A stretch of 64,000 nt of DNA, taken from NCBI RefSeq assembly GCF_000336635.1, contig NZ_AOLY01000008.1:1-64000 (forward strand), in the 5' to 3' direction. The translations under genes and the position numbers were made by a program. Of this stretch, positions 2,899-50,924 are shown piece after piece; within the stretch, counting starts at the first letter, position 1, and each line of letters begins with the position of its first letter. This DNA comes from Haloarcula japonica DSM 6131 (GTDB lineage: Archaea; Halobacteriota; Halobacteria; Halobacteriales; Haloarculaceae). The notes beneath the pieces are model-generated. The model saw nothing but the letters and a program-made list of their open reading frames with translations, was not told the origin of the DNA and searched no databases.

Positions 2899-2942
2899 AC
2901 CTTGTGGCCCGTTCCCCGAGGGCATATCCTTTGCCCCACGGC

Positions 2943-2960
2943 TTCACTTTCACTTTCACT
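2943..2960. repeat. Three tandem copies of TTCACT upstream of the GH2-like gene
   Basis: TTCACT is repeated three times without a break, 18-35 nt upstream of the alternative ATG at 2925 and 45-62 nt upstream of the preferred ATG at 2898. The phase is a perfect 6 bp. It may be a regulatory element or simple slippage. Confidence 0.5.
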
Positions 2961-3006
2961 CCGGGGATGGCTCGCTTTGACATAGGTAGCCACCTACTAT
3001 CCAGAT

Positions 3007-3180: not shown

Positions 3181-3206
3181 AGTACGCCCGGCAGTGACGG
3201 GGAAGT

Positions 3207-3638: not shown

Positions 3639-3722
3639 GCGGCGTCTTCTCTGTCGGCGGTCGTGCCGCTATTCGGCAGTGTCAAAAGAAAACAGGTTAG
3701 AGCGCCTGTACCGCTATCTCGC

Positions 3723-35654: not shown

Positions 35655-35692
35655 TACCAAACAATACTCTCATTTGATAGTTAGTCCTGAAA

Positions 35693-35811
35693 CCACCGTG
35701 TGGAACCATTTATATCAGGGTCATCCACGCCAGCGGCCATGCGCGAGATTCATGCAAGCAGACGAGGCCATCAGAACGACTATGTACCACCAACGAATAT
35801 CACTAAGTGGT
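35693..35811 (+). promoter_or_regulatory. thi4 promoter and leader with inverted repeats
   Basis: CCAC-CGT-GTGG (35693-35703) lies directly before a TATA element ATTTATATC (35708-35716). Transcription should begin near 35738-35742, giving a leader of about 70 nt, unusual here. The leader contains TACCAC (35785-35790) and GTGGTA (35807-35812), able to pair around the start codon at 35812. Control by a thiamine sensor is possible. I see no match to the TPP riboswitch core. Confidence 0.5.
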
Positions 35812-36744: not shown

Positions 36745-36875
36745 AATCCTCCCACGCCCCTCTGGTCCTTAGACAGTCACTTTTTACTGATTTAGCTGTC
36801 CATCTCGACTAGAATATCGCATTAATACAAACAATTATACAAGAGTATGGGGGATATGTTAGTGATTACCAATCA

Positions 36876-37364
36876 ATGTCTGAAGAGATGCAGCGGAGCG
36901 ACAACCACGGGTCTGACGAGCCAGTCGGCGGTGAGATCGCGGTCCAGCTCTGGAGCCGGCGGCCGGTATGTGGCCCCCGGACGACAGCTATCGACCGTTT
37001 CACCGAGCTCGCTGCAACGGGAGTTGTCGATGACTTCGATATCCAGACGTGGCCCGAGGAAATTTCCGTGTCCCAGCGGAGTGAACACGGCGAGGTGCTG
37101 GAGACTGTCGACCGGTACGAACAGTGGGCGACCGAACGGGGGCTGAGTCTCCGACCACCGTTCGAGACGCGGACCTCGTCGCTACTCGTCGGCGGCAGTA
37201 CGGAGGTGCTGCGACTCCCGATGATAGCCGTCGCCGTTTACGCGGACGATGACTTGGTCGGGGTGTACCCGTGTACTGACGGGGAAACAACGTGGTCTGT
37301 CACCGATTGCATCAACGCGCTCGCGGCTGAATCGACTGCACTTCCGCACGAATCCGCCCGGTGA
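36876..37364 (+). CDS. Conserved haloarchaeal 'HTH domain-containing' protein
   Basis: 162 residues from ATG 36876. Features are VQLWSRRPVCGPRTTAIDRFTELAATGVVDDFDIQTWPEEIS, RYEQWATERGLSLRPPFETR and a C-terminal LPMIAVAVYADDDLVGVYPCTDG. This is a family found many times per haloarchaeal genome and often labelled as an HTH-domain protein, though I see no clean helix-turn-helix. It is soluble, with function unknown. The upstream region is AT-rich (ATTAATACAAACAATTATAC, about 36821-36840). It lies between thi4 and an iron-type transporter gene with no obvious link to either. Confidence 0.72.
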   Translation: MSEEMQRSDNHGSDEPVGGEIAVQLWSRRPVCGPRTTAIDRFTELAATGVVDDFDIQTWPEEISVSQRSEHGEVLETVDRYEQWATERGLSLRPPFETRTSSLLVGGSTEVLRLPMIAVAVYADDDLVGVYPCTDGETTWSVTDCINALAAESTALPHESAR

Positions 37365-37453
37365 CGGGCCCTTCGTCGCGGCCCAGTCTGTCACCGTCGG
37401 TGTTGTGTCGGAGACCCCCTACCCACTGTGCTTGAACTGCTGACGCATCATAC

Positions 37454-37469
37454 TTTAGGCCAGCCAAAA
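37454..37469. promoter_or_regulatory. Upstream DtxR/IdeR-like operator (imperfect)
   Basis: TTTAGGCCAGCCAAAA is an imperfect inverted repeat (TTTAGG / CCaAAA) of the iron-dependent repressor type, 34 nt centre-to-centre upstream of a better copy at 37488-37503. The TATA-like region lies between the two. Confidence 0.6.
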
Positions 37470-37487
37470 TAATAACGTTTTTGTATT

Positions 37488-37503
37488 TTTAGGTAAGCCT
37501 AAA
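37488..37503. promoter_or_regulatory. DtxR/IdeR-like operator at the transcription start of the ABC binding-protein gene
   Basis: TTTAGGTAAGCCTAAA has perfect 6-bp arms (TTTAGG / CCTAAA) around TAAG, close to the known metal-dependent repressor consensus TTAGGTTAGCCTAA. It covers the expected transcription start, two bases before an ATG at 37506, so bound repressor should block initiation when iron is plentiful. Confidence 0.75.
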
Positions 37504-37505
37504 AC

Positions 37506-37520
37506 ATGGCCAACTCATGA
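37506..37520 (+). other. Minimal upstream ORF (Met-Ala-Asn-Ser-stop) overlapping the real start
   Basis: ATG GCC AAC TCA TGA begins at 37506, two bases after the operator and about 26 nt from an AT-rich TTTTTGTAT promoter core. Its TGA overlaps the real ATG at 37517 as ATGA. On a leaderless transcript this 4-codon ORF would be read first, and termination would place the ribosome at the main start. Confidence 0.5.
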
Positions 37521-38695
37521 CAGATGAAAAATCGATCACACGGAGAACATATATCGAAGGCAGTGGGGCAGCACTGCTTGCCGGCGCACTGGCGGGTTGT
37601 TCCGAGGACACGACATCTGCCGGCCGAGCGAACGAGTCGAGTCCAGCCATTGAATCGGAAACAGTTGAGAGGTCCGGCACGGTAACAGGCGATTCCTACA
37701 ACGTTTCCATGGAACCGATGGGTGAGGTCCAGTTCGACGGCCCGCCGGAGACTTGGGTCGCTCTTCTGGGAAGCTACGCCGACATGGGATTTGCGCTCGG
37801 CGCGGGCCAGACTATCGGGACGCAACTCCCCTACAGATACGCGACGCACTTCTACGAGGAACTTCCTGACGTTACCTATGATCCCGACTCAGTCACGACG
37901 CTGTATCAGAGTGGAAGCGTCGACAAGGAGCGGTTCTACGAGATGGACGCGGACCTCCATTTCATGGAGCCGAACCAGCTCATCTACTGGTACGACTGGG
38001 ATGAGGCGGATGTCGAAGAGATCGCCGAGAACGTCGCCCCCTTTTTCGGGAATTTCATCCGCCGGCGCAGTGACGACTGGCATCAGAACTACCGGTACTA
38101 CACACTGTATGAGGCCTTCGAAAAGGTGGCGCAGGTATTCCGGAGAACCGACCGGTTTGCGGCGTTTGAAAGCCTCTACGAGGATTTCATCGGGGATATC
38201 ACTGGCCGGCTTCCCCCAAAATCGAATCGGCCGCGGTCGCTCTTGGTGTATCCCGCTGACGAATCTGCCACCGCGTTCTACCCGTACCGGCTCTACGAGG
38301 GCGGCGTCAGCAAGAAGCAGTTCCGTGATCTGGGCCTGCGAGACGCCTTCGCCGGCTCCGACGTAGCCAACTACTCGGGCGACGGGTCGACGATGGACCT
38401 CGAAACGCTGCTCGAAATCGACCCCGACGCCCTCATCGTGCGGGGGCAGGAGCAGAAAACCGACGAGGAATTTCGGGAGTCGGTCGTCGAAAAACTCCAG
38501 GCCGATTCGGTCGCAAGTGAGATTACGGCGGTCCAGGAGAACGCGATCCACCGCGGCGGCTACCTGGATCAGGGACCGATCATCAACCTGTTCCAGACCG
38601 AACTGGCGGCCCAGCGCATCTATCCGGACGTGTTTACCGAAGACGAACTGTTCGACCGGCAACGGGTCGCCGACATCATCACTGGCGACATCTGA
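37517..38695 (+). CDS. Iron(III)-type ABC transporter substrate-binding lipoprotein
   Basis: 392 residues. The N-terminus ITRRTYIEGSGAALLAGALAGC is a twin-arginine signal with a lipobox Cys at about residue 28, so it is exported folded and lipid-anchored outside the membrane. The mature part is a periplasmic-binding-protein fold of the FepB/siderophore type (VALLGSYADMGFALGAGQTIG, LETLLEIDPDALIVRGQEQ, DQGPIINLFQTELAAQ). The ABC permease and ATPase are not next to it, so they lie elsewhere. Two DtxR-like operators upstream support an iron or siderophore substrate. The start at 37517 is fixed by the frame and by an overlapping 4-codon upstream ORF. Confidence 0.9.
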   Translation: MTDEKSITRRTYIEGSGAALLAGALAGCSEDTTSAGRANESSPAIESETVERSGTVTGDSYNVSMEPMGEVQFDGPPETWVALLGSYADMGFALGAGQTIGTQLPYRYATHFYEELPDVTYDPDSVTTLYQSGSVDKERFYEMDADLHFMEPNQLIYWYDWDEADVEEIAENVAPFFGNFIRRRSDDWHQNYRYYTLYEAFEKVAQVFRRTDRFAAFESLYEDFIGDITGRLPPKSNRPRSLLVYPADESATAFYPYRLYEGGVSKKQFRDLGLRDAFAGSDVANYSGDGSTMDLETLLEIDPDALIVRGQEQKTDEEFRESVVEKLQADSVASEITAVQENAIHRGGYLDQGPIINLFQTELAAQRIYPDVFTEDELFDRQRVADIITGDI

Positions 38696-38788
38696 GTAGA
38701 CCGGCTCACTGTTCGGATAGCCGTCTGTCAGCAGCTGTGAACCGCCGAGACGCAAACGGTATTACTCGGCGGTACCACTGACAAATAC

Positions 38789-39550
38789 ATGGAGTCCGTG
38801 ACGCTGTACCGCGCCCCGACGACGGTCGCCGACGCCGACGCCATCGCCGACTGGCTCGACGTGCGGGTCGACGCCGAGGTTTCCGTCCGGGACCGGTTTC
38901 TCTCGCTGCACGGCAACTCGGACCTGGCGGAGCCCTTCGCGGAGGCGCGGGTCCTCTCGCCGTACGACCGTGAAACCGGGAACACGATGCTGGGTATCGT
39001 CCGGTACGAGGAGCGAGCGCTGGAGTCGCCAGAGCGGGCCGGCGGTGTCATCTATGACGGGCTAGCGGTCCAGCGGGCGCTCCACGAGCGAATCCCCGAG
39101 TCCGAGCGCTCGCTGGACCATCTTCACGTCCCGCTGCTGGACCGCGTCGTCGGGACCTGGGGCGACCACGACGGCCGCTGGCACAAGCGCGTACACGTCC
39201 TCGGCCAGCCCGCGGTCGTCTCGGTACCGGGGCTCTACGAGGCCCCCGCAAAGCCCGAGCAGTACTACAAGGAACAGCAGAAACACGCCCTCCTCTCCGG
39301 CGGCGCACCGCCTCGTGAGGTGCTCGAAAACGAGGTCGAGGGCGAGTTCCTCGTCGAGGACGACCCGCGGACGACCGACGCACTCAAGGGGTACGTCCTG
39401 CAGGCCTACCACTACCTCGACACCGGCGAGGCGTTCTGTGATGAGGAGACCTGCCGGCTCCACAATCCCCACCGCCAGCCCGGCGTCGTCGCCGCCCAGC
39501 TCCGAGAGCCCGAATTCTGCCCGGAGCACGCTGAACAGTATCGGCCGTAG
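38789..39550 (+). CDS. DUF6775-like archaeal protein with C-terminal Cys/His cluster
   Basis: 253 residues. The segments VSVPGLYEAPAKPEQYYKEQQ (about residue 144) and AFCDEETCRLHNPHRQPG...FCPEHAEQY at the C-terminus recall the archaeal family DUF6775, described as putative metallopeptidases; that match is from memory and moderate. The Cys/His cluster could bind zinc, but I see no HExxH motif, so peptidase activity is not supported here. It is soluble. It is convergent with a methyltransferase gene 21 nt away. ATG 38789 is the only early start. Confidence 0.68.
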   Translation: MESVTLYRAPTTVADADAIADWLDVRVDAEVSVRDRFLSLHGNSDLAEPFAEARVLSPYDRETGNTMLGIVRYEERALESPERAGGVIYDGLAVQRALHERIPESERSLDHLHVPLLDRVVGTWGDHDGRWHKRVHVLGQPAVVSVPGLYEAPAKPEQYYKEQQKHALLSGGAPPREVLENEVEGEFLVEDDPRTTDALKGYVLQAYHYLDTGEAFCDEETCRLHNPHRQPGVVAAQLREPEFCPEHAEQYRP

Positions 39551-39571
39551 CCGTTCGACCCACCACACCCG

Positions 39572-40222
39572 TCAGGACACGGTCCCACTCAGCAGGCCGA
39601 GGTACCCCCCGGCGAAGGTCTCGTAGCGCCTGTCGACCGTCCGCTCGGTGAGTCGCTCGCGGGCCGCCCGCACCCGCCGCTCGAACGCGCTGGCGTGTGA
39701 CCGCGTCGAGAGCCGCGTCCCTGGCGCGGAGAGGCGGACGAACCCCTCGAACACGAGATTCAACGGCACGGCGAGGGCGCTGGGGCTCCGCTGGAAGTTC
39801 AGCAGGGCGACACGGCCGCCGGGGGCGACGCAGTCACACCACGCGTCGACCGCCCCCGCGGGGTCCTCGAAGATGCCGGCGACGAACGTCGCGAGCACGG
39901 CATCGGCATCCCGAATCGGCGGGCGGGCGGCATCGGCCTGTACGTAGTGTACGCTCTCGCCCGTCCGCGCGCATCGCTCGCGTGCGTGGTCGAGCATTTC
40001 CTGCGTCACGTCGATGCCGACGACCCGGCCCGACGGGCCGACTCGTTCCCGGAGGTGGGGCACGTTCGCGCCCGTGCCACACCCCATTTCGACGACGGTG
40101 TCACCGGGTGCAAGCGCCAGCGCCTCCGCCGTTCGAGCGCGCCAGGACGCCACACCGGGGGCACTCGCCAGCCAGTCGTACACTTGTGCCCACCGGCCGT
40201 AGAACGACTGCGCGTCGGTCAC
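39572..40222 (-). CDS. Class I SAM-dependent methyltransferase
   Basis: 216 residues. Motif I VVEMGCGTGANVPHLRERVG (about residues 43-62), post-I GRVVGIDVTQEMLDHARERC and motif IV ADAVLATFVAGIF match the UbiE/Methyltransf_25 group. The second half (FQRSPSALAVPLNLVFEGFVRLSAPG) may be a lipophilic-substrate lid. It overlaps the end of the HTH-ThiN gene by four bases (40219-40222) and so forms the third gene of a dcd operon. The substrate is unknown. Confidence 0.88.
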   Translation of the reverse strand: MTDAQSFYGRWAQVYDWLASAPGVASWRARTAEALALAPGDTVVEMGCGTGANVPHLRERVGPSGRVVGIDVTQEMLDHARERCARTGESVHYVQADAARPPIRDADAVLATFVAGIFEDPAGAVDAWCDCVAPGGRVALLNFQRSPSALAVPLNLVFEGFVRLSAPGTRLSTRSHASAFERRVRAARERLTERTVDRRYETFAGGYLGLLSGTVS

Positions 40223-41115
40223 AGGATTTCGCGGGCGGTTTCGGCGACCGCGACGGCGTCATCGCCGAGCAGGTACACTACCGGTTCGATCCCCATCGCG
40301 CCGGTGTGATAGAGCACGTCAGCAGCCGGGTCGTCAGCCAGTGCGGCCGCAACGGCCGGCTCAACGCTCTCCTCGGCGTCGAACTCGACGACGGTGAGGC
40401 CCGCGTCTCGGAGCGTGGCCACGACAGACTCGTCGTAGCGGACGTTCAACACCGCGCGGGCGTCGCTCCCGGCGGCCCGCGCCGCCAGCAACAGCGTCGC
40501 GACGTGCTCGCTGACGCCGAACTCCGGGTCCGCCGGAATCGTGGCCCGTCCTTTCACGTCGAGAATCCGCCCCGGGACGGCGGCCACATCGTCGATGCTG
40601 CCGGCGTCAGGGAGACACTGAACGAGGTTCGACCCCACCGCCGGGATGAGCGTCGCGAACCCGCTGGTGTTTTCCAGCACGCTGAGCCCGCGCCGCACCG
40701 ACGCGAGCGTCCGTTCGGCCGACCGGAGCTGTGAGTCCGGGTCGTGAACGGCGAACTCGTCGTCGTAATCGCCCAGTTCCGGGACTGCGCCCTCGTGTAT
40801 CTGTGCCAGCACGCCACCCTGTTCGAGTTCACGGATGAACACTTCCGTCTCGACCAGCGCCTGAACGGAACTCATATCACCATCCGCCAGCCCGTCAGCC
40901 AGCCGCTCGACCAACTCTTCCAGCCCGCGGTGGGCCAGCAGGTCCTCGTGGCGCGCCACGTCGCCGTGGACGTACTTCGACACCGCGCTCTGGCTGATTC
41001 CCAGCAAGTCGGCGACTTCGGACTGGGTCAGCCCGCGCTCTCTGAGGGCGTCGGCCAGCAGCGAGCGAAACGTCGGCAGGAAGTCGTCGACGACGATCTC
41101 CTCGATAAATCGCAC
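40219..41115 (-). CDS. HTH-ThiN domain regulator (ThiR-like), first copy
   Basis: 298 residues. An N-terminal helix-turn-helix (about residues 14-52; LRERGLTQSEVADLLGISQSAVSKYVHG) is followed by a helical linker and a ThiN domain (about 130-298; VGSNLVQCLPDAGSIDDVAAVPGR, PADPEFGVSEHVATLLL, HTGAMGIEPVVYLLG). Fused to an HTH, the ThiN (thiamine phosphate synthase) domain is thought to sense thiamine phosphate, as in archaeal ThiR. The start is a GTG at 41115 that shares one base with the dcd stop. A second copy is at 47433, and thi4 lies 3.5 kb away. Confidence 0.87.
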   Translation of the reverse strand: MRFIEEIVVDDFLPTFRSLLADALRERGLTQSEVADLLGISQSAVSKYVHGDVARHEDLLAHRGLEELVERLADGLADGDMSSVQALVETEVFIRELEQGGVLAQIHEGAVPELGDYDDEFAVHDPDSQLRSAERTLASVRRGLSVLENTSGFATLIPAVGSNLVQCLPDAGSIDDVAAVPGRILDVKGRATIPADPEFGVSEHVATLLLAARAAGSDARAVLNVRYDESVVATLRDAGLTVVEFDAEESVEPAVAAALADDPAADVLYHTGAMGIEPVVYLLGDDAVAVAETAREIL

Positions 41116-41702
41116 TATTGGTCGCCTCCGAACTCTCTGTCTCCCTGTATCTTGCTCGCCTGCGGTCCGGACTGGCCCTGGTACTTCGAGCCGCGCTCGG
41201 CCCCGTACGGACGGTCAGCGGGCGTCTTGAGTTCGGTGAACGTGAGCTGGGAGATTCGCATGCCGGGCGTGAGCGCGACCGGTGCGGTGCCGAGGTTCGA
41301 CAGTTCGAGCGTGATCTGCCCCTCGTAGCCGGGGTCGCACAGGCCGGCCGTCGCGTGCACAACAATCGCAAGCCGACCTAGCGACGAGCGCCCTTCGACG
41401 TGGGCGATGAGGTCGTCGGGGATGGCGACCCGTTCGTGGGTCGTCCCCAGTACGAAATCGCCGGGATGGAGAATGAACTCCCCGCCCTCCTCGATGACGG
41501 TTTCCTCGACGTAATCAGCGACTTCATCCTCGGAGTTCGGGTGAATACAGGGGATGTTAGCGTGCTGGAACTCCAAGAACTCATGCCCGAGACGGAGGTC
41601 GACGCTGGCCGGCTGGATCTGGATATCCGGGTCGTCAAGTGGTTCGACGACGAGGTCACCCTGTTCCAGCCGTCGGAGAATATCCGCATCTGAGAGTATC
41701 AT
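41115..41702 (-). CDS. dcd: dCTP deaminase
   Basis: 195 residues. The signatures are [63 protein letters not shown] with the catalytic Glu, and TPGMRISQL. It deaminates dCTP to dUTP (or on to dUMP in bifunctional archaeal relatives) for dTMP supply and low dUTP. The ATG at 41702 has a minus-strand GGGAGTTTAGG promoter core at about 41727-41737, so the message should be leaderless. It is the first gene of dcd / HTH-ThiN / methyltransferase, with stop and next start sharing one base. Confidence 0.95.
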
Positions 41703-41730
41703 GAGAGTGGCGTGTGCGGCCGGAAGCCTA

Positions 41731-41800
41731 AACTCCCCGATTCTCAGGAGGCCACGACGGGGAGTTCCGCAGGAGGAACGTGCGGACGCTGGAGAGCGTC
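41731..41800. other. Three consecutive perfect hairpins between dcd and pth2 (possible structured RNA)
   Basis: Hairpin 1: AACTCCCCG (41731-41739) with CGGGGAGTT (41758-41766). Hairpin 2: TCCGCA (41766-41771) with TGCGGA (41781-41786). Hairpin 3: GACGCT (41785-41790) with AGCGTC (41795-41800), loop GGAG. They are head to tail with almost no spacer inside the 195-nt dcd-pth2 intergenic region. No convincing peptide is encoded. A small RNA or the remnant of an IS200/IS605-type end are both possible. Confidence 0.5.
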
Positions 41801-41865
41801 TCCGGGGTGTGCTCGGCCACGGCGTATGTACTCTGTGGTATGTGCAACCGTGGAGGGAGTCCGAC

Positions 41866-41874
41866 GGGAGTTTA
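41866..41874 (+). promoter_or_regulatory. pth2 promoter core, mirror image of the dcd promoter
   Basis: GGGAGTTTA lies about 28 nt before the pth2 ATG at 41898. The same nine bases occur inverted at 41729-41737 before dcd, so the two divergent genes share an identical BRE/TATA core. Confidence 0.65.
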
Positions 41875-41897
41875 AGTACGGGTGGCCATGTACTCAT

Positions 41898-42236
41898 ATG
41901 AAGCAGGCTATCGTCGCGCGGGCCGACATCGGCATGGGCGAGGGCAAGCTCGCCGCCCAGGTTGCCCACGCCTCGCTGTCGGCCTACGAGGACGCCGGCC
42001 CGAAGCCCCGGAAAGCCTGGAAGGGCGCGGGGCAGAAGAAAGTCGTCCTGAAGGCCACCAGCGAGTCCGAGCTGTTCGAACTCGCGGACGTGGCCGAGCG
42101 CGAAGGCCTGCCGCATGCGGTCGTCCGGGACGCTGGCCACACACAGCTCGATCCGGGGACTGTTACGGCACTCGCCGTCGGCCCCGCCGAGGACGAGCTG
42201 GTGGACCGCGTCACCGGCGACCTGCCGCTGTTCTGA
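41898..42236 (+). CDS. pth2: Peptidyl-tRNA hydrolase Pth2
   Basis: 112 residues, the normal size for the archaeal/eukaryotic Pth2 fold. [30 protein letters not shown] carries the conserved Lys and His, and [28 protein letters not shown] the catalytic Asp and Thr region. It releases peptides from stalled peptidyl-tRNA in the cytosol. ATG 41898 is supported by the GGGAGTTTA core 28 nt upstream. It precedes psmA by 69 nt on the same strand, which has its own TATA. Confidence 0.96.
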
Positions 42237-42305
42237 GGGCAGCGGCCCGCGATACGGTTATATAAGAGCAACCCTAACCTCAGGTGAACAACAACACGAT
42301 ACATT

Positions 42306-43040
42306 ATGCAAGGAAACGAACAACAGGCCTACGACCGCGGGATCACTATCTTCTCCCCGGACGGACGCCTCTATCAGGTCGAGTATGCACGAGAAGCCGT
42401 CAAGCGCGGGACCGCCAGCGTGGGGGTCCGCACCGAGGACGGCGTGGTCATCGCCGCCGACCGCCACGCCCGGTCGCCACTCATCGAGCGCGACAGCATC
42501 GAGAAGATCCACGAGATCGACTCCCACGTCGGCGTCGCCAGCGCGGGCCACGTGGCCGACGCGCGCCAGCTTATCGACGTTGCGCGCCGGCAGTCACAGG
42601 TCAACCGCCTGCGCTACGACGAGCCGGCCTCCGTCGAGTCGCTGACTAAGGAAATCACGGACTACATCCAACAGTACACCCAGACCGGCGGCGCACGCCC
42701 GTTCGGTGTGGCGCTGCTGGTCGCCGGTATCGAGGACGGCGAACCGCGCCTCTTCGAGACGGACCCCTCGGGGACGCCCTACGAGTGGCAGGCCGTCGCC
42801 ATCGGTGGCTCCCGCGAGGACATCCAGTCGTTCCTGGAAGACGAGTACGCCGAAGGGATGGACCTCGAAGGCGGCATCGAACTCGCGCTCCGGGCGCTGG
42901 CCTCGGTCAACGAGGACGGCCTCGACGCGACCGGTGTCGACATCGCCACCATCGACGTGGAAAGCGAGCAGTTCGAAAAGCTCGCCGAGGACGACATCGC
43001 CGAGCGGCTCGAAGAGTTCGAGCTCGGAGGTGAGGAATAA
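42306..43040 (+). CDS. psmA: Proteasome alpha subunit
   Basis: 244 residues. The alpha signature YDRGITIFSPDGRLYQVEYA (about residues 9-28) forms the gate helix H0 region, followed by GVVIAADRHARSPL and VGVASAGHVADARQLID. It forms the outer, non-catalytic heptameric rings of the 20S proteasome and docks the PAN/Cdc48 ATPases. The promoter GGTTATATAAGAG (about 42256-42268) gives a leader of about 15-20 nt. The stop codon overlaps the psmB ATG (TAATG), so the two subunits are translationally coupled. Confidence 0.97.
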   Translation: MQGNEQQAYDRGITIFSPDGRLYQVEYAREAVKRGTASVGVRTEDGVVIAADRHARSPLIERDSIEKIHEIDSHVGVASAGHVADARQLIDVARRQSQVNRLRYDEPASVESLTKEITDYIQQYTQTGGARPFGVALLVAGIEDGEPRLFETDPSGTPYEWQAVAIGGSREDIQSFLEDEYAEGMDLEGGIELALRALASVNEDGLDATGVDIATIDVESEQFEKLAEDDIAERLEEFELGGEE

Positions 43041-43732
43041 TGTACGACCCCGAGAACCGACTGACTGACGCCTACGATCCCGAAGTCGGCACGCTGCCGA
43101 ACGAGGACGGCGGCCGCGACGAGGAGAACGTCGTCAAGACCGGAACGACCACCGTCGGCCTCTCGACGGAGAACGGCGTCATCATCGCGACGGACCGGCG
43201 CGCCTCCCTCGGTGGCCGCTTCGTCTCGAACAAGCAGGTCCAGAAGGTCGAGCAGATCCACCCGACGGCCGCGATGACGCTGGTCGGCAGCGTCGGCGGG
43301 GCCCAGTCGTTCATCCGCTCGCTTCGCGCCGAGGCCGACCTCTACGAGGTCCGCCGCGACGAACCGCTCTCGATTCACGCGCTGGCGACGCTCGCGGGCA
43401 ACTTCGCCCGCGGCGGCCCGTACTTCGCCATCAACCCCATCGTGGGCGGCGTCGACGAAGAGGGCAGCCACGTCTACAGCGTCGACCCCGCCGGCGGCGT
43501 GCTCGAAGACGACTACACCGTCACCGGCTCCGGGACGATGGTCGCGACGGGGACCATCGAGGGGCAGTACGACCCCGAGATGAGCCTCTCCGAGGCGCGT
43601 GACCTGGCGATCCGCGCAGTCAACGCCGCGGCCGAGCGTGACACCGGGTCCGGTAACGGCGTCGTGCTTGCCGAAATCACCGACGAGGGCGTCGAGATCG
43701 ACGCCTTCGATGACTACGAGTCGGCCGAATAA
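43040..43732 (+). CDS. psmB: Proteasome beta subunit (precursor)
   Basis: 230 residues. A propeptide of about 35 residues precedes the autocleavage site Gly35-Thr36 in KTGTTTVGLS, so Thr36 becomes the N-terminal nucleophile. The catalytic Asp (IIATDRRAS) and the Lys of QVQKVEQI correspond to Asp17 and Lys33 of the Thermoplasma enzyme. It forms the inner catalytic rings. It overlaps psmA by one base. A T-rich stretch (AGTTTTCTGCTTCTTT) follows the stop and could end the transcript. Confidence 0.97.
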   Translation: MYDPENRLTDAYDPEVGTLPNEDGGRDEENVVKTGTTTVGLSTENGVIIATDRRASLGGRFVSNKQVQKVEQIHPTAAMTLVGSVGGAQSFIRSLRAEADLYEVRRDEPLSIHALATLAGNFARGGPYFAINPIVGGVDEEGSHVYSVDPAGGVLEDDYTVTGSGTMVATGTIEGQYDPEMSLSEARDLAIRAVNAAAERDTGSGNGVVLAEITDEGVEIDAFDDYESAE

Positions 43733-43789
43733 CTCGGCTGTCCCAGTTTTCTGCTTCTTTGCGGTCGGTTATCAGCAGCCAGTGGCTAC

Positions 43790-44185
43790 TCACTCCCGCG
43801 GCACGACCCGCATCGGGTAGTCAGATTGGCGCATGATGTCCTGCGCGACGCTGCCGAAGATGAGCCGGTCGGTCTGGCTGCGCTTGCGGACGCCGATGAC
43901 CAGTTCGTCGGCGTCGACCTCCGCAGCGATGTCGAAGATGTCCGTCGCCGGGCTGTTGCCCCGGATTATCTGGTAGGTTTCGACGGACACCTGATCGCCG
44001 AGCCGCTCCGAAACGACTTCCAGCGCGGCCTTCCCGTCGGCGACCGTCTCCGATGACGTGCTGTCGCCACCGCGCTGTGAGTTGACCGCGTAGACGCTGT
44101 CGTCCGGGTCGAGAACCGTCTCCAAGTACGAACACAGCGTTTCGCTGACTCTCTCGGAGTTCGTCGCGAGCACGAAGGTCTGCAT
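43790..44185 (-). CDS. Universal stress protein (UspA family)
   Basis: 131 residues, one Usp domain. It begins MQTFVLATNSERVSETLC and has the nucleotide-binding tail G-x-x-K-R...G-S-V in GVRKRSQTDRLIFGSVAQDIM, so ATP binding is likely. Such proteins help survival under stress, but the exact activity varies. A minus-strand ACTTATCATG (about 44206-44215) gives a leaderless-type start at 44185. It converges with psmB. Confidence 0.88.
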   Translation of the reverse strand: MQTFVLATNSERVSETLCSYLETVLDPDDSVYAVNSQRGGDSTSSETVADGKAALEVVSERLGDQVSVETYQIIRGNSPATDIFDIAAEVDADELVIGVRKRSQTDRLIFGSVAQDIMRQSDYPMRVVPRE

Positions 44186-44267
44186 ATGCGATGTTCCACA
44201 CCCATCATGATAAGTATGTGTCTTGTTACCACGATACTGTGTGTATTCAGCTTCTCATGGCAGTCGG

Positions 44268-44396
44268 CTACTCGGTCAAGACTAGCCAACAGACCGCGAG
44301 GAAAACGGTGAGGACGAGCAGTATCGACCCCCAGACCACCGCTCCGAAGGCCGTCGAACCGAGCGCAGCGAGGGTGATGACGGCCGGCGGGGTCAT
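44268..44396 (-). CDS. 42-residue single-helix membrane peptide, probable symporter accessory subunit
   Basis: ATG 44396 to TAG 44268-44270. The peptide is MTPPAVITLAAL followed by one long hydrophobic helix GAVVWGSILLVLTVFLAVCWLVL and a short acidic end. Its ATG overlaps the TGA of the SSS symporter by four bases (ATGA), so it is translated with it. Tiny one-helix partners encoded directly after SSS symporters are known in bacteria as symporter small accessory proteins; the assignment here rests on position and shape. It is the last gene of the TenA-symporter operon. Confidence 0.72.
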   Translation of the reverse strand: MTPPAVITLAALGSTAFGAVVWGSILLVLTVFLAVCWLVLTE

Positions 44397-45901
44397 CGCT
44401 CGGATCCCCCGTCGGCCACCGGCTCATCGAGCGCACGGACCTCCCGTCCGAGGCTGTCGAGGTCGGCGTCGGCCCCGCCCAGTAGCGTCGCCGCAACCGT
44501 GAGTGCAGCCGAGACGAGCGTCGCACCGGCGAAAGCGATTAGGAACGACGGGGCTGGCAGGGCGCTTCCGACGCCCGGCACCGCGGCGACGAGGCCGCGG
44601 AGCGACGGGAAGTAGACGAAGCCGACGACCAGGCCCGCGATGCCCGAGACCAACGCGCCCGGGCCGGTGAGCCGCTCGGTGTAGAGGCCGGCGAGGAACG
44701 GCACGAAGACGCCGGAGGCAAGCAGGTCGGCCGTCAGGAACAGCTGGAGGACGCTGTACCCCTGCGCGCCGATGAAGATCGCACCGAGGGCGACGGCGAC
44801 TGTCAGCCCGCGGCCCCCGAGCCAGAGGGTCCGCTGGTCTGGGTCATCGAGCAGTCGAGCGAGGTCCGCGGTGACGACGCTGGCGATGGCGTTGAACATT
44901 GTATCGGCGGAGCTCATGACCAGCAAGACGGCGAGGACGACCACAGCGAGGGTCACCCACTGAGGGAACGCCTCGGCGACCACGAGGAAGAAGGCGATGC
45001 TCGCGGAGCCGGATTCAGTGAGTCCCAGTCCCGTGGCGGCGATGCCGAACAAGCCGGACAGCAGGAGCATCGGCACGACGACGACGGCGGCAATGCCCAT
45101 GCCGCGGCGGAGCGCGCCCTCGCCATCGGCGGCGTACACCCGCTGCCAGACGCCCTGGTTCAGCATGTTCGCGCCCAGGAGGGCAAACGCCACGTACAGC
45201 CCGAACTCCAGGCCGGGACCGAACGTCGGGTCGAGCAGCGTCGGATCGGCCGACACCACCGTTGCGTGGAACTCGCTCGTCCCGCCCAGCGAGAGCAGCG
45301 CGCCGCCGAAACCGACGGCCAGGAGCGGCAGGATGACCAGCGTCTGGACGGTGTCGGTGACGATGCTGGCGAGCAGGCCACCGTAGGTCGTGTAGACCAG
45401 GACGAAGCCGCCGATGAGCAGCGAGGTCTGCCAGAGGGGCACGTCCGCGACGAGCGCGAGCGCGCTGGCGATGCCGGTCATCTCCGCGGCGAGGAAGATG
45501 AACATGTAGAACACCGAGACGAGCAGGACGAGCAGGTACATCCCCGAACCGAAGCGGGCGTAGGCGAACTCCGTCAGCGAGTGGCCCGCGGGCATCACCT
45601 CGCGGATGCGAGCGCCGACCGGAATAAAGAGGAGAAGCGGAATCGCGCTGCCGATGGCGTAGCCCAGCACGGCGGGGAGTCCGCCGAAGGCGGCCCCGGC
45701 CTCAGCCGGACTCAGTAGAATCCAGACGCCCATCATCGAGGCGATGACCGTCGCGGCGAGGGTCCCGCTTCCGGCCGAGTCACGGGCCGAGATGTAGGTC
45801 TCCACCGAGTCGATGCGGCCGCGCGCGGCGAAGAGACCGACGCCCGTGAACACCAGAACGGTCGCCGCGGTCAAGCCGAGAACGACAGCCGAGGAGACCA
45901 T
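44393..45901 (-). CDS. Sodium:solute symporter (SSS family), probable thiamine-precursor uptake
   Basis: 502 residues with about 13 membrane helices. SSS hallmarks are ETYISARDSAGSGTLAATVIASMMGVWILLSP near the start (sodium-site region), SLTEFAYARFGSGMY, and SSADTMFNAIASVVTADLARL in the second half. It imports an organic solute with Na+. Its ATG follows the stop of a TenA_E-type gene with no gap (TAGATG), and the operon opens with TenA, so thiamine, HMP or an amino-pyrimidine breakdown product is the inferred cargo. A small membrane peptide overlaps its 3' end. Confidence 0.9.
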   Translation of the reverse strand: MVSSAVVLGLTAATVLVFTGVGLFAARGRIDSVETYISARDSAGSGTLAATVIASMMGVWILLSPAEAGAAFGGLPAVLGYAIGSAIPLLLFIPVGARIREVMPAGHSLTEFAYARFGSGMYLLVLLVSVFYMFIFLAAEMTGIASALALVADVPLWQTSLLIGGFVLVYTTYGGLLASIVTDTVQTLVILPLLAVGFGGALLSLGGTSEFHATVVSADPTLLDPTFGPGLEFGLYVAFALLGANMLNQGVWQRVYAADGEGALRRGMGIAAVVVVPMLLLSGLFGIAATGLGLTESGSASIAFFLVVAEAFPQWVTLAVVVLAVLLVMSSADTMFNAIASVVTADLARLLDDPDQRTLWLGGRGLTVAVALGAIFIGAQGYSVLQLFLTADLLASGVFVPFLAGLYTERLTGPGALVSGIAGLVVGFVYFPSLRGLVAAVPGVGSALPAPSFLIAFAGATLVSAALTVAATLLGGADADLDSLGREVRALDEPVADGGSER

Positions 45902-46660
45902 CTACGGGCTCACCTCGTGGTCGGCCGTCTCCCCGTAGGCTGTCTCGAAGAACTGCCGTTCGAGCGCGACCGTGCGGTCGAACAGCGACGCCACCCTGGC
46001 CTCCCGACGGGGCGAAAGCGTCGGTCCGACGGCGTCGAGTTCGCGCCGTAGCCAGTCGACGAACGCGACGAAGGAGTCGACGGCGTGGAGATCGACCCAC
46101 TCGGCGAAGTAGAAGGGCAGTTCCATCCCGGTGCTGGGCGGGCCGTCGCTGTCCGGGTCACCGTGCGTTTCCGCGGCCGCCGTCGCCCAGGACTCGTATA
46201 TCCACTCGGCGGGAACGAGCACGGCGAGCGTCTCGGCGTAGCCGCCCTCGTGCGCGGCGCGACCGAGCAGGTCGATGAACGCCGCCGTCGCCGGCGTCGG
46301 CTCGGGGTCCTGCCAACGTGACTCCGAGACGCCGAGCGCGGTAACGGAGCGCTCGAAGTAGTCGTCTTCCTCGTCGGTCACGGTGTCGAGAAACTCGACG
46401 AGGCGACGCTTGGACGCCATATCTGGAGCCTGCCCGACCGCGTGGCCGAACGTCCCGACGAGTTCGTCGACGAAGGCGTAGTCCTGCACCAGATACGCGG
46501 CGAACGCGTCCTCGTCGAGCGTGCCGGCTCCGAGTTCCTCGACGAACCGGTGCTCGACAGCGGCGTCCCAGTCCGGTTGACTCCGCTCACGGAGCCAGTC
46601 GGTGAATCGGGGGTCGGTGACGCGGTCGGCGTAGGCTTCGTACGTCTCGGCCGCGGTCAT
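45902..46660 (-). CDS. TenA_E-type (Cys-less) thiaminase II family protein
   Basis: 252 residues from ATG 46660. It has the helical TenA/PQQC fold: FTDWLRERSQPDWDAAVEHRFVEELGAGTLDEDAFAAYLVQDYAFVDELV, then LVPAEWIYESWA where classical TenA has P-C-M, so the catalytic Cys is absent, and a C-terminal ERQFFETAY. TenA_E proteins in plants and bacteria act on formylamino- and amino-HMP, thiamine breakdown products. A loop insert GDPDSDGPPSTG is haloarchaeal in style. It overlaps tenA by ATGA and abuts the symporter gene. A longer in-frame reading upstream is not a gene. Confidence 0.87.
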   Translation of the reverse strand: MTAAETYEAYADRVTDPRFTDWLRERSQPDWDAAVEHRFVEELGAGTLDEDAFAAYLVQDYAFVDELVGTFGHAVGQAPDMASKRRLVEFLDTVTDEEDDYFERSVTALGVSESRWQDPEPTPATAAFIDLLGRAAHEGGYAETLAVLVPAEWIYESWATAAAETHGDPDSDGPPSTGMELPFYFAEWVDLHAVDSFVAFVDWLRRELDAVGPTLSPRREARVASLFDRTVALERQFFETAYGETADHEVSP

Positions 46661-47316
46661 AGCTCCCATCCCTCCCGCGTGTAGGCCATTTCCCAGAACC
46701 GGTGCTCCAGTTTCGCGCTCGTCAGGAACGCGTCCTCCATCACGTCGTGCTGGCCGGGATACCGCTCCCCACAGCGGTCGACGTACGCCCGACACCAGCC
46801 CGTCGCCTCCCGGAAGTCCTCGCCCGTGTACATCTCGATGAACGGCGTGTATCGGTGTTCGCCGTCGGCCAGGTCCGCCATGTGCTCCGCGACATCGAGA
46901 TAGCCCTGCATACAGGGGTACAGCGCCGCGACGATCTCTGCTTCGTGGCCCTCGTAGGCCGTCCGGACGAGGAAGTTCGTGTACGCCAGGCAGGTCGGGG
47001 CCTTCTCGGTTGACTCCAATTCCCGTTCCGAGATCCCGTAGTCCGCTGCGAACTCCCGGTGGAGGTCCATCTCGGTGTCGAGCACCTGATGGCCGACGCC
47101 CAGCAGGTGCGTCATCGTCGACTCCTCGCGGGCCGTCGCGCCGGCAAGCGCGAACAGTCGCGCGTAGTCCTGCAGGTACCGGTAGTCCTGTGTCACCCAG
47201 TGCTTGAATGCCGCCTCGTCGAGCGTCCCGTCGGCCAATTCCCGGACGAACGGGTGGTCTTTCTGTGCGTCCCAGATGTCCTCGCCGATGTCGAGCAGGT
47301 GGTCGCTGAACGCCAT
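46657..47316 (-). CDS. tenA: TenA, aminopyrimidine aminohydrolase / thiaminase II (Cys type)
   Basis: 219 residues from ATG 47316. FKHWVTQDYRYLQDYARLFALA holds the substrate-binding Asp, LYPCMQGYLDVAEHM the catalytic Cys (about residue 135), and KLEHRFWEMAYTREGW the C-terminal catalytic Glu. It hydrolyses amino-HMP to HMP for thiamine salvage and can cleave thiamine. It is the first gene of the tenA / TenA_E / symporter / small peptide operon. A minus-strand ATATAATACC (about 47342-47351) supports a leaderless start at 47316. Confidence 0.93.
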   Translation of the reverse strand: MAFSDHLLDIGEDIWDAQKDHPFVRELADGTLDEAAFKHWVTQDYRYLQDYARLFALAGATAREESTMTHLLGVGHQVLDTEMDLHREFAADYGISERELESTEKAPTCLAYTNFLVRTAYEGHEAEIVAALYPCMQGYLDVAEHMADLADGEHRYTPFIEMYTGEDFREATGWCRAYVDRCGERYPGQHDVMEDAFLTSAKLEHRFWEMAYTREGWEL

Positions 47317-47359
47317 TGGTAGTCGACACAACAGACTCCGAGGTATTATATTCTGCTAA

Positions 47360-47374
47360 TACAACTTGGTTGTA
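47360..47374. promoter_or_regulatory. Candidate operator TACAAC-TTG-GTTGTA upstream of tenA
   Basis: A perfect inverted repeat with 6-bp arms and 3-bp spacer lies 10-20 nt upstream of the tenA TATA element, in the 116-nt region shared with the divergent HTH-ThiN gene. It sits where an activator or repressor of the tenA operon would bind. A second palindrome, CGAGAT-A-ATCTCG (47385-47397), lies closer to the regulator gene. Confidence 0.6.
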
Positions 47375-47432
47375 ATTCGGGAAACGAGATAATCTCGGCC
47401 GGCAGGGTACTTGAGGCTGGGGCGTTTCACTC

Positions 47433-48362
47433 ATGGCAATGACACTGCAGTTGCCGAGCGAGATCGTGGTCGAGCGGTTCCTCCCGACGGCCCGGGCGAT
47501 GCTCGCCACGGAACTCGACGAGAAGGGGTGGACCCAGCAGGAAATCGCCGACCAGCTCGGCGTGACACAGGCCGCAGTGAGCAAATACGGCAGCGGCTCG
47601 GTCACCATCGAGGAGCGGTTCCACGAGGACGCCCGAATGCAACAGACCATCGAACGGATCGCCGACGGGCTAGCCGCAGGCGAGATGGACGAGTTCGCGG
47701 TGCTGGGCGAACTGCTCGCTCTGGTACGGGAGTTCGAGGACCGGGGCCCCATCTGTGCGGTCCACGAGGAAGAGATGCCGGCGCTACAGGGGATGGGCTG
47801 TGACCTCTGTGTCCGAGGGACAGACACCGCAGTCCAGGCGGAACGGGCTGTGCTGTCTTCGGTCCGGCGAGCCACGCGACTGCTGGCGGACAGCGCTGTC
47901 ATCGTCGACGCCATCCCGAACGTGGGGATGAACGTCGGTATGGCGCTGCCGGACGCTGAAGACGCACTCGACGTGGCGGCAGTCCCTGGTCGGATTCACG
48001 ACCTGCGAGGGCGGGTCAACGTCCCATCGAACCCCGAGTTCGGCGCGTCAGAACACGTCGCAGGGACGATACTGGCCGCGATGGCGGTCGACCCCTCGCT
48101 CCGAGCGGCGCTCAATCTGACGAGCGATGAAGCGTTCCTTGACGCCGCCCAGGAACGGGGTATCGAGCCGCTGGAGTTCGACGCCGGCTACGAGGACCGG
48201 GACGAGCGGCTCGAAGCGACGTTCCGCGAACGCGGCGACGTCCCTCGTGTCATCTACCACAGCGGCGCGTTCGGCATCGAACCGATAACCTACGTCTTCG
48301 GCGAGTCCGCGGTCGAGGCGGCCGAACTTGCAGTCGAACTCCTCGACGCGGCCGACACCTAA
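47433..48362 (+). CDS. HTH-ThiN domain regulator (ThiR-like), second copy, with CxxH/CxxC site
   Basis: 309 residues. Helix-turn-helix at about 25-60 (LDEKGWTQQEIADQLGVTQAAVSKYGSG), a linker with Cys108-x2-His111 and Cys123-x2-Cys126 (ICAVH, GCDLC) that could bind zinc, and a ThiN domain (about 145-309; IPNVGMNVGMALPDAEDALDVAAVPGR, NPEFGASEHVAGTILA, HSGAFGIEPITYVFG). It is divergent from the tenA operon and is the prime candidate for its thiamine-phosphate-responsive control. The paralogue at 40219 lacks the four metal-type residues. ATG 47439 is a possible alternative start. Confidence 0.88.
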   Translation: MAMTLQLPSEIVVERFLPTARAMLATELDEKGWTQQEIADQLGVTQAAVSKYGSGSVTIEERFHEDARMQQTIERIADGLAAGEMDEFAVLGELLALVREFEDRGPICAVHEEEMPALQGMGCDLCVRGTDTAVQAERAVLSSVRRATRLLADSAVIVDAIPNVGMNVGMALPDAEDALDVAAVPGRIHDLRGRVNVPSNPEFGASEHVAGTILAAMAVDPSLRAALNLTSDEAFLDAAQERGIEPLEFDAGYEDRDERLEATFRERGDVPRVIYHSGAFGIEPITYVFGESAVEAAELAVELLDAADT

Positions 48363-48383
48363 CCGCCTTGGCCGCCGAAACAG

Positions 48384-49355
48384 TCAGAACCAGCCGGTCT
48401 CGGGGTCGATGGGGTTCTCGGGGTCCTCGCCGCGCAGCACCCGGACGACGTCTTCGGCCACGGTCCGTGTCAGTTCAACCCGGGACTCCTCTGAGTACCA
48501 CGCGACGTGGGGGCTACAGACCACGCTGTCGAGGTCGTGCAGCGACGACGCTCCGGGTGGCTCCGATTCGCGTACGTCCAGTCCGGCCCCGCCGAGGTCA
48601 CCGCTGACGAGCGCGTCGTACAGCGCCGTCTCGTCGACGAGCCCGCCCCTGGCCGTGTTCACGAGCAGCGCGTCGTCCCGCATCCGGTCGAGCGCGTTCG
48701 CGTCGATCAGCCCTCTCGTCTCGTCGGTCAGCGGTGCGTGCAACGAGACGACGTCCGAATCTGTCAGCAGCGTCTCGAACGTGACCGACTCGACGCCGAG
48801 GTCGCCCATCGGGTACTCGGGAACGTAGGGGTCATAGGCGATGACGTCGACGTCGAACCCCCGGAGCTTCGCGGCGAACCGCCTGGCGAGCTTGCCGAAG
48901 GCGACAAGGCCGACGGTGCTGCCGGCGAGGCGATGTAGCGGCTGCCCGGTAGACCACTCCCACTCGCCGCTTTTCACCGACCGGTCGAACATCGGTATCT
49001 TCCGCAGACAGGCGAGCATGAGCGCGAACGCGTGCGTCGACACTTCTTCGACGGAATAGTCGGGGACGTTGACCACCGTCACGCCGGCGTCGACCGCCGC
49101 CCGCACGTCGATGTTGTCTACGCCGATGCCAGCCCGGCCCACCACTTTGAGCGAGTCGGCGGCGTCAATGACCTCGGCCGTAACCTGCGTGCCGGCGTCG
49201 ACGATTAACGCGTCCGCGCCCTTCACTGCGCGTGCGACGGCCGACGGTTCTTTCGCCCCTGTCGTTTCGACGGTCGCGTCAACCGCGTCCAGCACCGCCG
49301 CCCGTGTCTCCCCATCCATCACTTTAGTATCAGAGACAACAATTTTGTATGACAT
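48384..49355 (-). CDS. D-2-hydroxyacid dehydrogenase (CtBP-like)
   Basis: 323 residues. The catalytic domain (VVGRAGIGVDNIDVRAAVDAG) is followed by the NAD-binding domain (TVGLVAFGKLARRFAAKLRGFDVDVIAYDPY), where the usual GxGxxG is AxGxxA, as in CtBP-like members. Catalytic Arg (LVNTARGGLVDE), Glu region and His (VVCSPHVAWYSEES) are present. It should reduce a 2-keto acid or oxidise a 2-hydroxy acid with NAD(P)H; substrate is unknown. A TTTTATTTTAGG (about 49376-49387, minus strand) lies 26 nt before the ATG. It converges with the HTH-ThiN gene. Confidence 0.9.
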   Translation of the reverse strand: MSYKIVVSDTKVMDGETRAAVLDAVDATVETTGAKEPSAVARAVKGADALIVDAGTQVTAEVIDAADSLKVVGRAGIGVDNIDVRAAVDAGVTVVNVPDYSVEEVSTHAFALMLACLRKIPMFDRSVKSGEWEWSTGQPLHRLAGSTVGLVAFGKLARRFAAKLRGFDVDVIAYDPYVPEYPMGDLGVESVTFETLLTDSDVVSLHAPLTDETRGLIDANALDRMRDDALLVNTARGGLVDETALYDALVSGDLGGAGLDVRESEPPGASSLHDLDSVVCSPHVAWYSEESRVELTRTVAEDVVRVLRGEDPENPIDPETGWF

Positions 49356-49514
49356 ACTCTGGCTTGCTTCGGGCCTAAAATAAAATCATCTGTCAGGATC
49401 AGTCCGGTCGTCGGAATCGCGGCACAGGACTGTGGCTGCACAGCGGTGACTAGCGAAGAACTGACAGAATAGCAGCAAACTTTTATGATAAATTCGCGAG
49501 GAGGTGGCAACAGT

Positions 49515-50924
49515 ATGTCGGCTAGTAACACAGGTGAAACTTCCCTCGAACGCATCGGCTATCGACTCTCCGCGTGGGTGGAACGGTGGATGCCCAGCCC
49601 GTTCCTGTTCGCGCTCATCCTCAGCTACGTCGTGTTCTTGGCCGGCGTCGGCCTCACCGGGTCCGGCCCCGTCGAGATGGTGCAGTTCTGGTACGACGGC
49701 TTCTGGGCGTTTCTGACGTTCTCGATGCAGATGGTCCTCATCCTGATGACGGGCTTCGTCGTGGCGTACCACCCGCGTGTCAACGCCGGCATCCGCCGGC
49801 TGACGCAACTCCCCAGCACCGGGAAACAGGCGGTCGTCCTCGTCGGCCTGTTGACGATGCTGCTTGGCTGGATCCACTGGGGGCTGAGCCTCATCCTCGG
49901 CGCTATCTTCGCCCGAGAGATGGGCAAGACAGCCCACGAAAACGACATCGACGTCCACTACCCGGTCCTCTGTGTCGCCGGCTACCTCGGCCTCGGGCTC
50001 ACCTGGCACTGGGGGCTATCCGGGTCCGCGCCGCTGCTCCTTGCGACGGAGGGCAACGAGTTCATCCAGCAGGGCGTCATTGACGTCGTCGTCTCCGCCT
50101 CCGAGACCATCTTCCATCCCTACGGCCTCATCCTGACGGGGCTGTCGATAGCCTACGCCCTCGTCGTCCTGTACGTCATCACGCCGACCGGCGACCAGGC
50201 ACGGGGTATCACGCATTACATCCCCGAAAACGACCTGTTCGAGTCCGCGAGTGACGGCGGTACGGAGACGACCGCCGATCAGTCCCGGCAGCAGGTCCCG
50301 GCGGAACGCATCAACCACAGCCGTTTGCTGGGCGGGATTATCGGCCTGACCGGTATCGCGATGGTCGTCGCCCAGTTCGTCCAGTCCGGTATCGACGCGC
50401 TCGGGCTGAACATCGTCAATTTCGGCTTCCTGACGATTGGGATCTTCATCTACATGGACCCACAGACATACCGGGAGAAGTTCGGCGAGGCGGCGACCGC
50501 CGCGGCGGGCATCGTGTTGCTGTTCCCCTTCTTCGCCGGCATTCAGGGGATGATGGCGTCCTCCGGGCTGGCGCAGTTGATGGCGGGCGGGCTCATTTCG
50601 CTGTCCACGCCCCAGACGTTCCCGGTCATCGCCTGGCTCGCCGGCGCGACGGTCAACATCTTCGCTCCCTCCGGCGGCGGCGAGTGGATCATCCTCGGGC
50701 CGCCGATTCTCGAAGCCGCACAGAACCTCGGGGTCCCGGTCGGCCAGGCGACGATGGCCTACGCCGTCGGCGACGCCCACACGAACCTCCTCAATCCCTT
50801 CTGGGCGCTCCCGCTGCTAGCTATCACCCGCATCAAGGCCCGGGAGATGTTCGGCTACGCCATCGCGATGTTGCTCGCGCTCACGCCGTTCCTGGCTGTC
50901 GTCCTGTTCGTCCTGCCGTACTAA
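49515..50924 (+). CDS. atoE: AtoE-type short-chain fatty acid transporter
   Basis: 469 residues with about 11-12 membrane helices. SAWVERWMPSPFLFALILSYVVFL at the start, GLLTMLLGWIHWGLSLILGAIFAREMG and NIFAPSGGGEWIILGPPILEAA in the C-half are AtoE/TIGR00366 signatures. It probably takes up short-chain fatty acids such as butyrate or related acids. ATG 49515 is preceded by GGAGGTGG at 49500-49507, and TTTTATGAT at about 49480-49488 is the likely TATA. An in-frame ATG at 49485 would lie inside the TATA. The MFS gene follows on the same strand. Confidence 0.9.
   Translation: MSASNTGETSLERIGYRLSAWVERWMPSPFLFALILSYVVFLAGVGLTGSGPVEMVQFWYDGFWAFLTFSMQMVLILMTGFVVAYHPRVNAGIRRLTQLPSTGKQAVVLVGLLTMLLGWIHWGLSLILGAIFAREMGKTAHENDIDVHYPVLCVAGYLGLGLTWHWGLSGSAPLLLATEGNEFIQQGVIDVVVSASETIFHPYGLILTGLSIAYALVVLYVITPTGDQARGITHYIPENDLFESASDGGTETTADQSRQQVPAERINHSRLLGGIIGLTGIAMVVAQFVQSGIDALGLNIVNFGFLTIGIFIYMDPQTYREKFGEAATAAAGIVLLFPFFAGIQGMMASSGLAQLMAGGLISLSTPQTFPVIAWLAGATVNIFAPSGGGEWIILGPPILEAAQNLGVPVGQATMAYAVGDAHTNLLNPFWALPLLAITRIKAREMFGYAIAMLLALTPFLAVVLFVLPY

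Follow-up and report, generated by a model that had tools for sequence, protein, structure and literature searches.

What solute is imported by a symporter whose gene lies directly behind two enzymes of thiamine salvage, and does this symporter work together with a small membrane partner? These questions are raised by a gene cluster in a 64,000-nucleotide stretch of Haloarcula japonica DSM 6131 (RefSeq assembly GCF_000336635.1, contig NZ_AOLY01000008.1, positions 1 to 64,000; hereafter the window). The cluster is an operon of four gapless minus-strand genes encoding a cysteine-type TenA (TenA_C), a cysteine-less TenA (TenA_E), a transporter of the SSS family, and a 42-residue open reading frame (ORF) with a single predicted helix. 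TenA_C and TenA_E are joined by ATGA, the TAG stop codon of TenA_E is followed directly by the ATG of the symporter, and the symporter and peptide are again joined by ATGA. The initial annotation of this DNA, made from the sequence alone, placed these four genes at 44268-47316 with the same junctions and proposed that they salvage thiamine breakdown products. Its observation was correct, and its thiamine reading is well supported by the comparisons described here, which also add a divergent HTH-ThiN regulator and an upstream palindrome. The locus is likely to be a salvage module under thiamine control that combines a symporter-peptide importer with two TenA enzymes. The peptide is a new part of this module and its most interesting one.

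The gene order recurs across haloarchaea. A symporter profile search matched 140 stretches of DNA, 128 of which held relatives, and the best 80 were kept as named loci. TenA lies upstream of the symporter in 62 of these 80 loci (TenA_C in 60, TenA_E in 54, both in 52), with every counted match on the same strand and 0.2-2.8 kb away; neither TenA is present in the fetched DNA of the other 18, some of which are on short contigs. By this comparison, the arrangement is a conserved haloarchaeal module. The association also holds at the genome level. Among 116 Haloarculaceae genomes, evenly sampled from a larger set and scored for the symporter at E ≤1e-60, 51 contain both symporter and TenA, 3 the symporter only, 15 TenA only, and 47 neither. 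The symporter-bearing genomes thus have TenA in 51 of 54 cases and the others in 15 of 62 (Fisher value 2e-15, which ignores relatedness), and the table with the genus of the window removed reads 37, 3, 15 and 47. The sample includes one near-identical pair (G024 and G084), and thiC was scored as present in G050, which has a fragment of it, and in G095, where it is split. The symporter lies apart from TenA in a number of these genomes, and the association is not mere linkage because the genes co-occur also when they are not neighbours. In several genomes the stand-alone symporter is flanked by genes that appear, from their N-termini, to encode TFB and thioredoxin reductase.

Within Haloarcula the module exists in two distant versions, with symporter identities to the window of ~50% (loci L169, L176, L180, L184) and 86-96% (L108-L113), which suggests replacement or horizontal transfer within the genus. 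Large plasmids of Haladaptatus (L218, L219, L261) also carry the symporter, with the TenA pair in two of the three, and here the symporter is followed by a gene annotated as a divalent metal cation transporter.

A shared palindrome connects the operon with other thiamine genes. The sequence TACAACTTGGTTGTA upstream of the operon is a perfect palindrome, conserved with at most one mismatch at the equivalent position in 13 of 13 congeneric loci. Its general form, TAYAAC-N3-GTTRTA with at most two mismatches, precedes 45 of the 62 TenA operons, compared with a mean of 1.1 in first-order resampled sequences and 1 of 225 clean control upstream regions. These controls exclude 450 bases around every TenA, SSS and ThiR match and replace a first set (40 and 69 of 328) that was contaminated by ORFs overlapping the tested promoters. 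The thiC promoters of 19 of 19 loci contain tandem sites of the same motif family, differing from the operon form at three positions at most. In 20 of 20 thi4 loci, TATYAC-N3-GTGGTA is located at the start codon or close to it. As the motif was discovered in the window and widened by hand once thi4 and thiC had been viewed, these counts were not obtained blind. Symporter genes lacking TenA were tested after the wider form had been fixed. It precedes 14 of 15 of them (at most two mismatches; 0.85 in resampled sequences) and two of three such loci first set aside, giving 16 of 18 in total, and occurs in 7 of the 225 control regions. On the strength of these sites before TenA-less copies, the symporter family seems to belong to the thiamine regulon whether TenA accompanies it or not.

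This wider, joint form, TAYMACNNNGTKRTA, occurs without mismatch at four places in the 4.28 Mb genome, thi4 and this operon accounting for two of them, vs two in the reversed control. When one mismatch is allowed, it is found at four more positions in the window (1016, 29594, 34468 and 61281), and the loose palindrome with 2 mismatches yields 64 genomic sites vs 33 in the reversed control, mostly noise. Control by a thiamine pyrophosphate (TPP) riboswitch was dismissed, as positions 34000-50000 gave no Rfam match at E ≤1. Many promoters contain two palindromes phased by 13 bases, one of them near a TATA-like stretch (thiC: L220-L237 and L103; symporter: L121, L133 and L138), a spacing that suggests cooperative binding of a regulator.

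The proposed regulator belongs to a class with an archaeal precedent: HTH-ThiN proteins (ThiR) reportedly control the thiamine genes of archaea, the effector being thiamine phosphate (Rodionov 2017). Like these, the protein encoded divergently from the operon combines an HTH with a ThiN domain and is associated with a palindromic site and thiamine genes. It differs in having a second paralogue beside the TenA operon, and its binding and ligand are predicted. Among the 80 named loci, 26 include a homologue of the divergent protein in the DNA that was fetched, and 25 of these 26 have TenA. The two paralogues in the window are ~6 kb apart and share ~42% identity, and each is >85% identical to its own counterparts in other Haloarcula. 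ThiR is also mentioned in passages of two other papers (PMC12029414, PMC10746257).

The symporter matches Pfam SSF with 85.3 bits (cut-off 22.8). Its predicted structure has a mean pLDDT (predicted local distance difference test) of 85.1, and its best structural matches are SSF proteins, including the human choline transporter CHT1 (Z 41.0) and SiaT (32.5); this comparison of a model demonstrates the SSF fold only and says nothing on the solute. Haloarcula species are its closest named relatives in a tree of 81 symporters, one row of which (L178) is partial. Because of the regulator and palindrome upstream, and because the palindrome recurs before TenA operons, thi4, thiC and TenA-less symporters, the protein is most likely a thiamine-regulon transporter of a pyrimidine or thiamine, of the ThiV/SSSP kind. 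Passages of published work assign uptake of hydroxymethylpyrimidine (HMP) in SAR11 to ThiV, with specificity (PMC11452348), place thiV next to tenA in Pelagibacterales (PMC10881298), propose thiamine or HMP as the solute of SSSP, and mention a clade of SSSP genes from Halobacteria that lack riboswitches (PMC4260697). The window symporter shares with these proteins of SAR11, algae and bacteria the SSS family and thiamine-linked control, and its palindrome and TenA neighbours give it the thiamine-linked control and gene neighbourhood expected of ThiV/SSSP. Import of HMP or thiamine is proposed or shown for them in those passages and is predicted here. The window locus differs in its ThiR-type palindrome in place of a TPP riboswitch, in the presence of both TenA types, and in the one-helix partner. 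A residue-level match to the ThiV binding site (SiaT positions 78, 139 and 254; PMC11452348) is not claimed: in a by-eye mapping, a Tyr and an acidic residue occur at or near such places in vSGLT and SGLT1 as well.

Both TenA proteins belong to Pfam TENA_THI-4 (PF03070, cut-off 22 bits), with 154.9 bits for TenA_C and 91.6 bits for TenA_E. TenA_C passes the thiaminase II equivalog TIGR04306 (161.2 bits, cut-off 130), and TenA_E fails it with 94 bits. Residues Asp44, Tyr112, Cys135 and Glu204 of TenA_C, which we take to have active-site roles, are conserved in 60 of 60 homologue rows. In 54 of 54 TenA_E rows the cysteine site is occupied by Ala followed by Glu, and the window's TenA_E has zero cysteines (rows are from the window and named loci, with those <190 aa dropped). 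The initial division into Cys and Cys-less types is thereby borne out. TenA_C can be aligned with Bacillus subtilis TenA, and the nearest solved structures to TenA_E in the PDB are pneumococcal proteins. The pair shares family and active-site type with known TenA_C and TenA_E salvage enzymes and differs from them in being encoded by adjacent genes next to a symporter, in an archaeon, with activities that are predicted. The initial annotation suggested that the two enzymes could act in sequence. Their activities may instead overlap, because the Arabidopsis TenA_E has high affinity for formylamino-HMP, according to a paper that also mentions archaeal TenA_E from Halobacteria (PMC10470507).

The peptide proposed in the initial annotation as a hidden small partner of the symporter has gained evolutionary support. 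A one-helix ORF of 33-49 codons is located at the symporter stop in 40 of 53 family symporter loci (the window and 52 fetched). It is present in 48 of the 80 named loci and additionally in L178, where the symporter frame is broken, and usually starts at -4 (ATGA or GTGA) or -1 relative to the symporter stop. F17, W22 and V28 occur in every one of the 37 distinct members. At 723 other gene ends in the same DNA a comparable ORF occurs once, and this one is the L178 peptide copy. Across 14 Haloarcula loci, dN/dS (the ratio of nonsynonymous to synonymous substitution rates) is 0.115 over 33 codons and 28 of 45 variable sites are third positions, with pN/pS ~2.4 in the shifted frames. A chance ORF was rejected on the control gene ends and this dN/dS. 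A peptide profile searched against 194 genomes of the class gave 35 matches in 34 genomes. The 30 strongest (E ≤1e-5) all lie directly behind this symporter and the remaining five are weak; 13 of the 30 are from the window's own genus and some are identical or close to profile members. At L178 (positions 2528-4026), TenA_E lies upstream of the broken-frame symporter and the peptide downstream, and assembly error or decay is possible there.

The peptide occurs in both main groups of the symporter tree but not in Haloferax, Halorhabdus, several Haloarcula and others, a distribution that fits ancestry with repeated loss. Of the 18 TenA-less symporter loci, 11 have it, and this tendency to follow the symporter and not TenA makes it probably a subunit of the transporter. 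From their adjacency we infer that peptide and symporter may form a complex. The peptide is annotated as a hypothetical protein in the public record of Haladaptatus halobius and is unlisted in the gene table of a second public record, a table known to be incomplete.

Known families offer little by which to classify the peptide. The window peptide gave zero matches at E ≤1 in either family library (Pfam and that of TIGR04306). Scans of the family, in which 25 of 29 matched Pfam families were listed, returned weak scattered resemblances, including CcmD (best E 0.001, Pfam), KdpF (best E 1.4e-4, 2 of 37 members), NCBIfam NF038354 "putative transporter small subunit" (1 of 37, E 0.11) and other one-helix proteins, and two-helix SSS-partner families were not among the matches listed. 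Against PDB chains the profile matched KdpF alone (E 1.1) and not MAP17, a search in which a 39-position one-helix profile has little power. By these searches, the family is without a convincing match to a known one. Small partners of other SSS transporters include two-helix proteins of the YjcH/DUF485, DUF4212, DUF3311 and YhdT types. These, NF038354 and the peptide are all small membrane proteins encoded beside a symporter or transporter; the peptide differs in its one helix and ~40 residues. A precedent for one transmembrane helix serving an SSS-family symporter is MAP17, described in PMC10803289 as the single-helix auxiliary subunit of human SGLT2. The likeness is an analogy of role only. 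We tentatively suggest, at somewhat less than even confidence, that the peptide may found a new family of one-helix accessory subunits for haloarchaeal thiamine-regulon SSS symporters, a prokaryotic counterpart of MAP17 in role.

In the best explanation of these results, scarcity of thiamine phosphates would release the HTH-ThiN repressor from the palindrome and the operon would be expressed. The peptide, as a translationally coupled subunit, would aid folding or membrane stability of the symporter, and the two together would carry out sodium-driven import of HMP, amino-HMP, formylamino-HMP or thiamine. TenA_E would remove the formyl and/or amino group from an imported pyrimidine, TenA_C would take amino-HMP and damaged thiamine as substrates, and the HMP so formed would enter the ThiDN route to thiamine phosphate. 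Both thiC and a third ThiN domain, the latter within a ThiDN-like frame, are also present in the H. japonica genome.

The alternatives differ in which part of this explanation they replace. A symporter for an unrelated solute (proline, choline or pantothenate) that merely sits in a TenA operon would agree with the label "sodium:proline symporter" given to this protein in public plasmid records, with the top structural Z to human choline transporter chains, though fold shows no function, and with the symporter's location away from TenA in some genomes. Such a carrier is quite improbable, as the protein fails the PutP equivalog TIGR02121 (34 of 515.5 bits needed) and the PanF equivalog (29 of 328) by a wide margin, thiamine-type palindromes precede the TenA-less copies, and the co-occurrence with TenA persists when the genes are unlinked. 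These results suggest that the public label is misleading here, stand-alone copies included. A closer competitor, which we hold to be the less likely account though one of some weight, is a module for thiamine uptake and turnover in which intact thiamine is the imported solute and the TenA enzymes serve only to clear damaged thiamine inside the cell. The organism's own thiC, with which it makes HMP, is in keeping with this, as are the 33 of 69 thiC-positive family genomes that have TenA and the symporter and the proposal of thiamine or HMP for SSSP in the cited passages of PMC4260697. Against it stand the specific uptake of HMP by the closest studied symporter, SAR11 ThiV (PMC11452348), the preference for formylamino-HMP reported for TenA_E in PMC10470507, and 18 family genomes that have TenA and the symporter without a thiC match. 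For the peptide, the alternative is an overlapping ORF that is regulatory or accidental, or a fragment detached from the symporter, conserved through translational coupling or RNA constraint; this would explain its overlap with or position directly behind the symporter stop codon and its absence from many lineages. This is unlikely given purifying selection at the amino-acid level and the three residues common to all distinct members. A split-off piece is excluded by the size of the symporter, which is the same with and without the peptide (median 506 vs 508 aa), with similar helix counts (13 vs 12).

Several findings weigh against the salvage module as set out above. Twenty-four TenA loci with an intact symporter are missing the peptide (17 with both TenA types, 7 with TenA_C alone), and since these operons do without it the peptide is not essential to the module. 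Seventeen of the 62 TenA operons fall below the palindrome threshold, and six Haloferax-group operons (L149, L151, L152, L155, L159 and L167) are all without a listed palindrome. According to a passage of PMC10470507, external formylamino-HMP did not support growth of a marine bacterium possessing both TenA types. Fourteen thiC-less genomes have TenA and lack this symporter, and TenA is not clearly commoner without thiC (32 of 47 genomes vs 34 of 69, p 0.057). Loss of thiC as a simple explanation of salvage was rejected on this weak trend and on the presence of thiC in the window's own genome. The 69 genomes with thiC comprise 33 with TenA and symporter, 1 with TenA only, 2 with the symporter only and 33 with neither; the corresponding numbers for the 47 without a thiC match, some of which are incomplete, are 18, 14, 1 and 14. 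Because it is found with and without thiC, the module would serve prototrophs and probable HMP auxotrophs alike. One Haloarcula-genus genome (G112, locus L044) has the whole module and no thiC match, and is a candidate for natural HMP auxotrophy.

Positions of the operon, its neighbours and the proposed operator sites in the window
Feature	Positions	Strand or location	Evidence	Proposed role
tenA_C, cysteine-type TenA (thiaminase II), 219 aa	46657-47316	minus	PF03070 and TIGR04306 above cut-off; Asp44/Tyr112/Cys135/Glu204	
tenA_E, cysteine-less TenA, 252 aa	45902-46660	minus	PF03070 above, TIGR04306 below cut-off; Ala151-Glu152	
SSS symporter, 502 aa	44393-45901	minus	Pfam SSF, model, upstream palindrome	proposed importer of thiamine pyrimidine or thiamine
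One-helix peptide, 42 aa	44268-44396	minus	conservation, dN/dS, adjacency	proposed symporter subunit
Palindrome TACAACTTGGTTGTA	47360-47374	between operon and divergent regulator	0 mismatches	proposed operator
HTH-ThiN (ThiR-type) gene	47433-48362	plus, divergent	Pfam HTH_3 and ThiN above cut-off	proposed operon regulator
Second HTH-ThiN paralogue	40219-41115	minus	Pfam HTH_3 and ThiN above cut-off	
thi4 (thiazole synthesis)	35812-36744	plus	Pfam Thi4, 202 bits	proposed member of the operon's regulon
Palindrome TATCACTAAGTGGTA	35798-35812	extends into thi4 start codon	operon motif family	

The initial annotation further reported no archaeal precedent known to it for a module of this complete composition. 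The full composition and the peptide were indeed not found in the literature searched; the ThiR regulon study (Rodionov 2017), outside that literature, may list parts of the module. The claim was partly too strong, since a Halobacteria SSSP clade (PMC4260697) and Halobacteria TenA_E (PMC10470507) are in print, as passages of these papers attest. The latter paper asks which transporters are crucial for uptake of formylamino-HMP and amino-HMP. In the module described here, a candidate importer shares an operon with the two enzymes predicted to consume these compounds, and because the module occurs in cultivable genera (Haloarcula and Haloferax) the transporter question is testable by deletion and uptake experiments. 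It also brings to light a family of ~40-residue proteins that annotation easily overlooks and whose proposed role as a transporter subunit is open to experiment.

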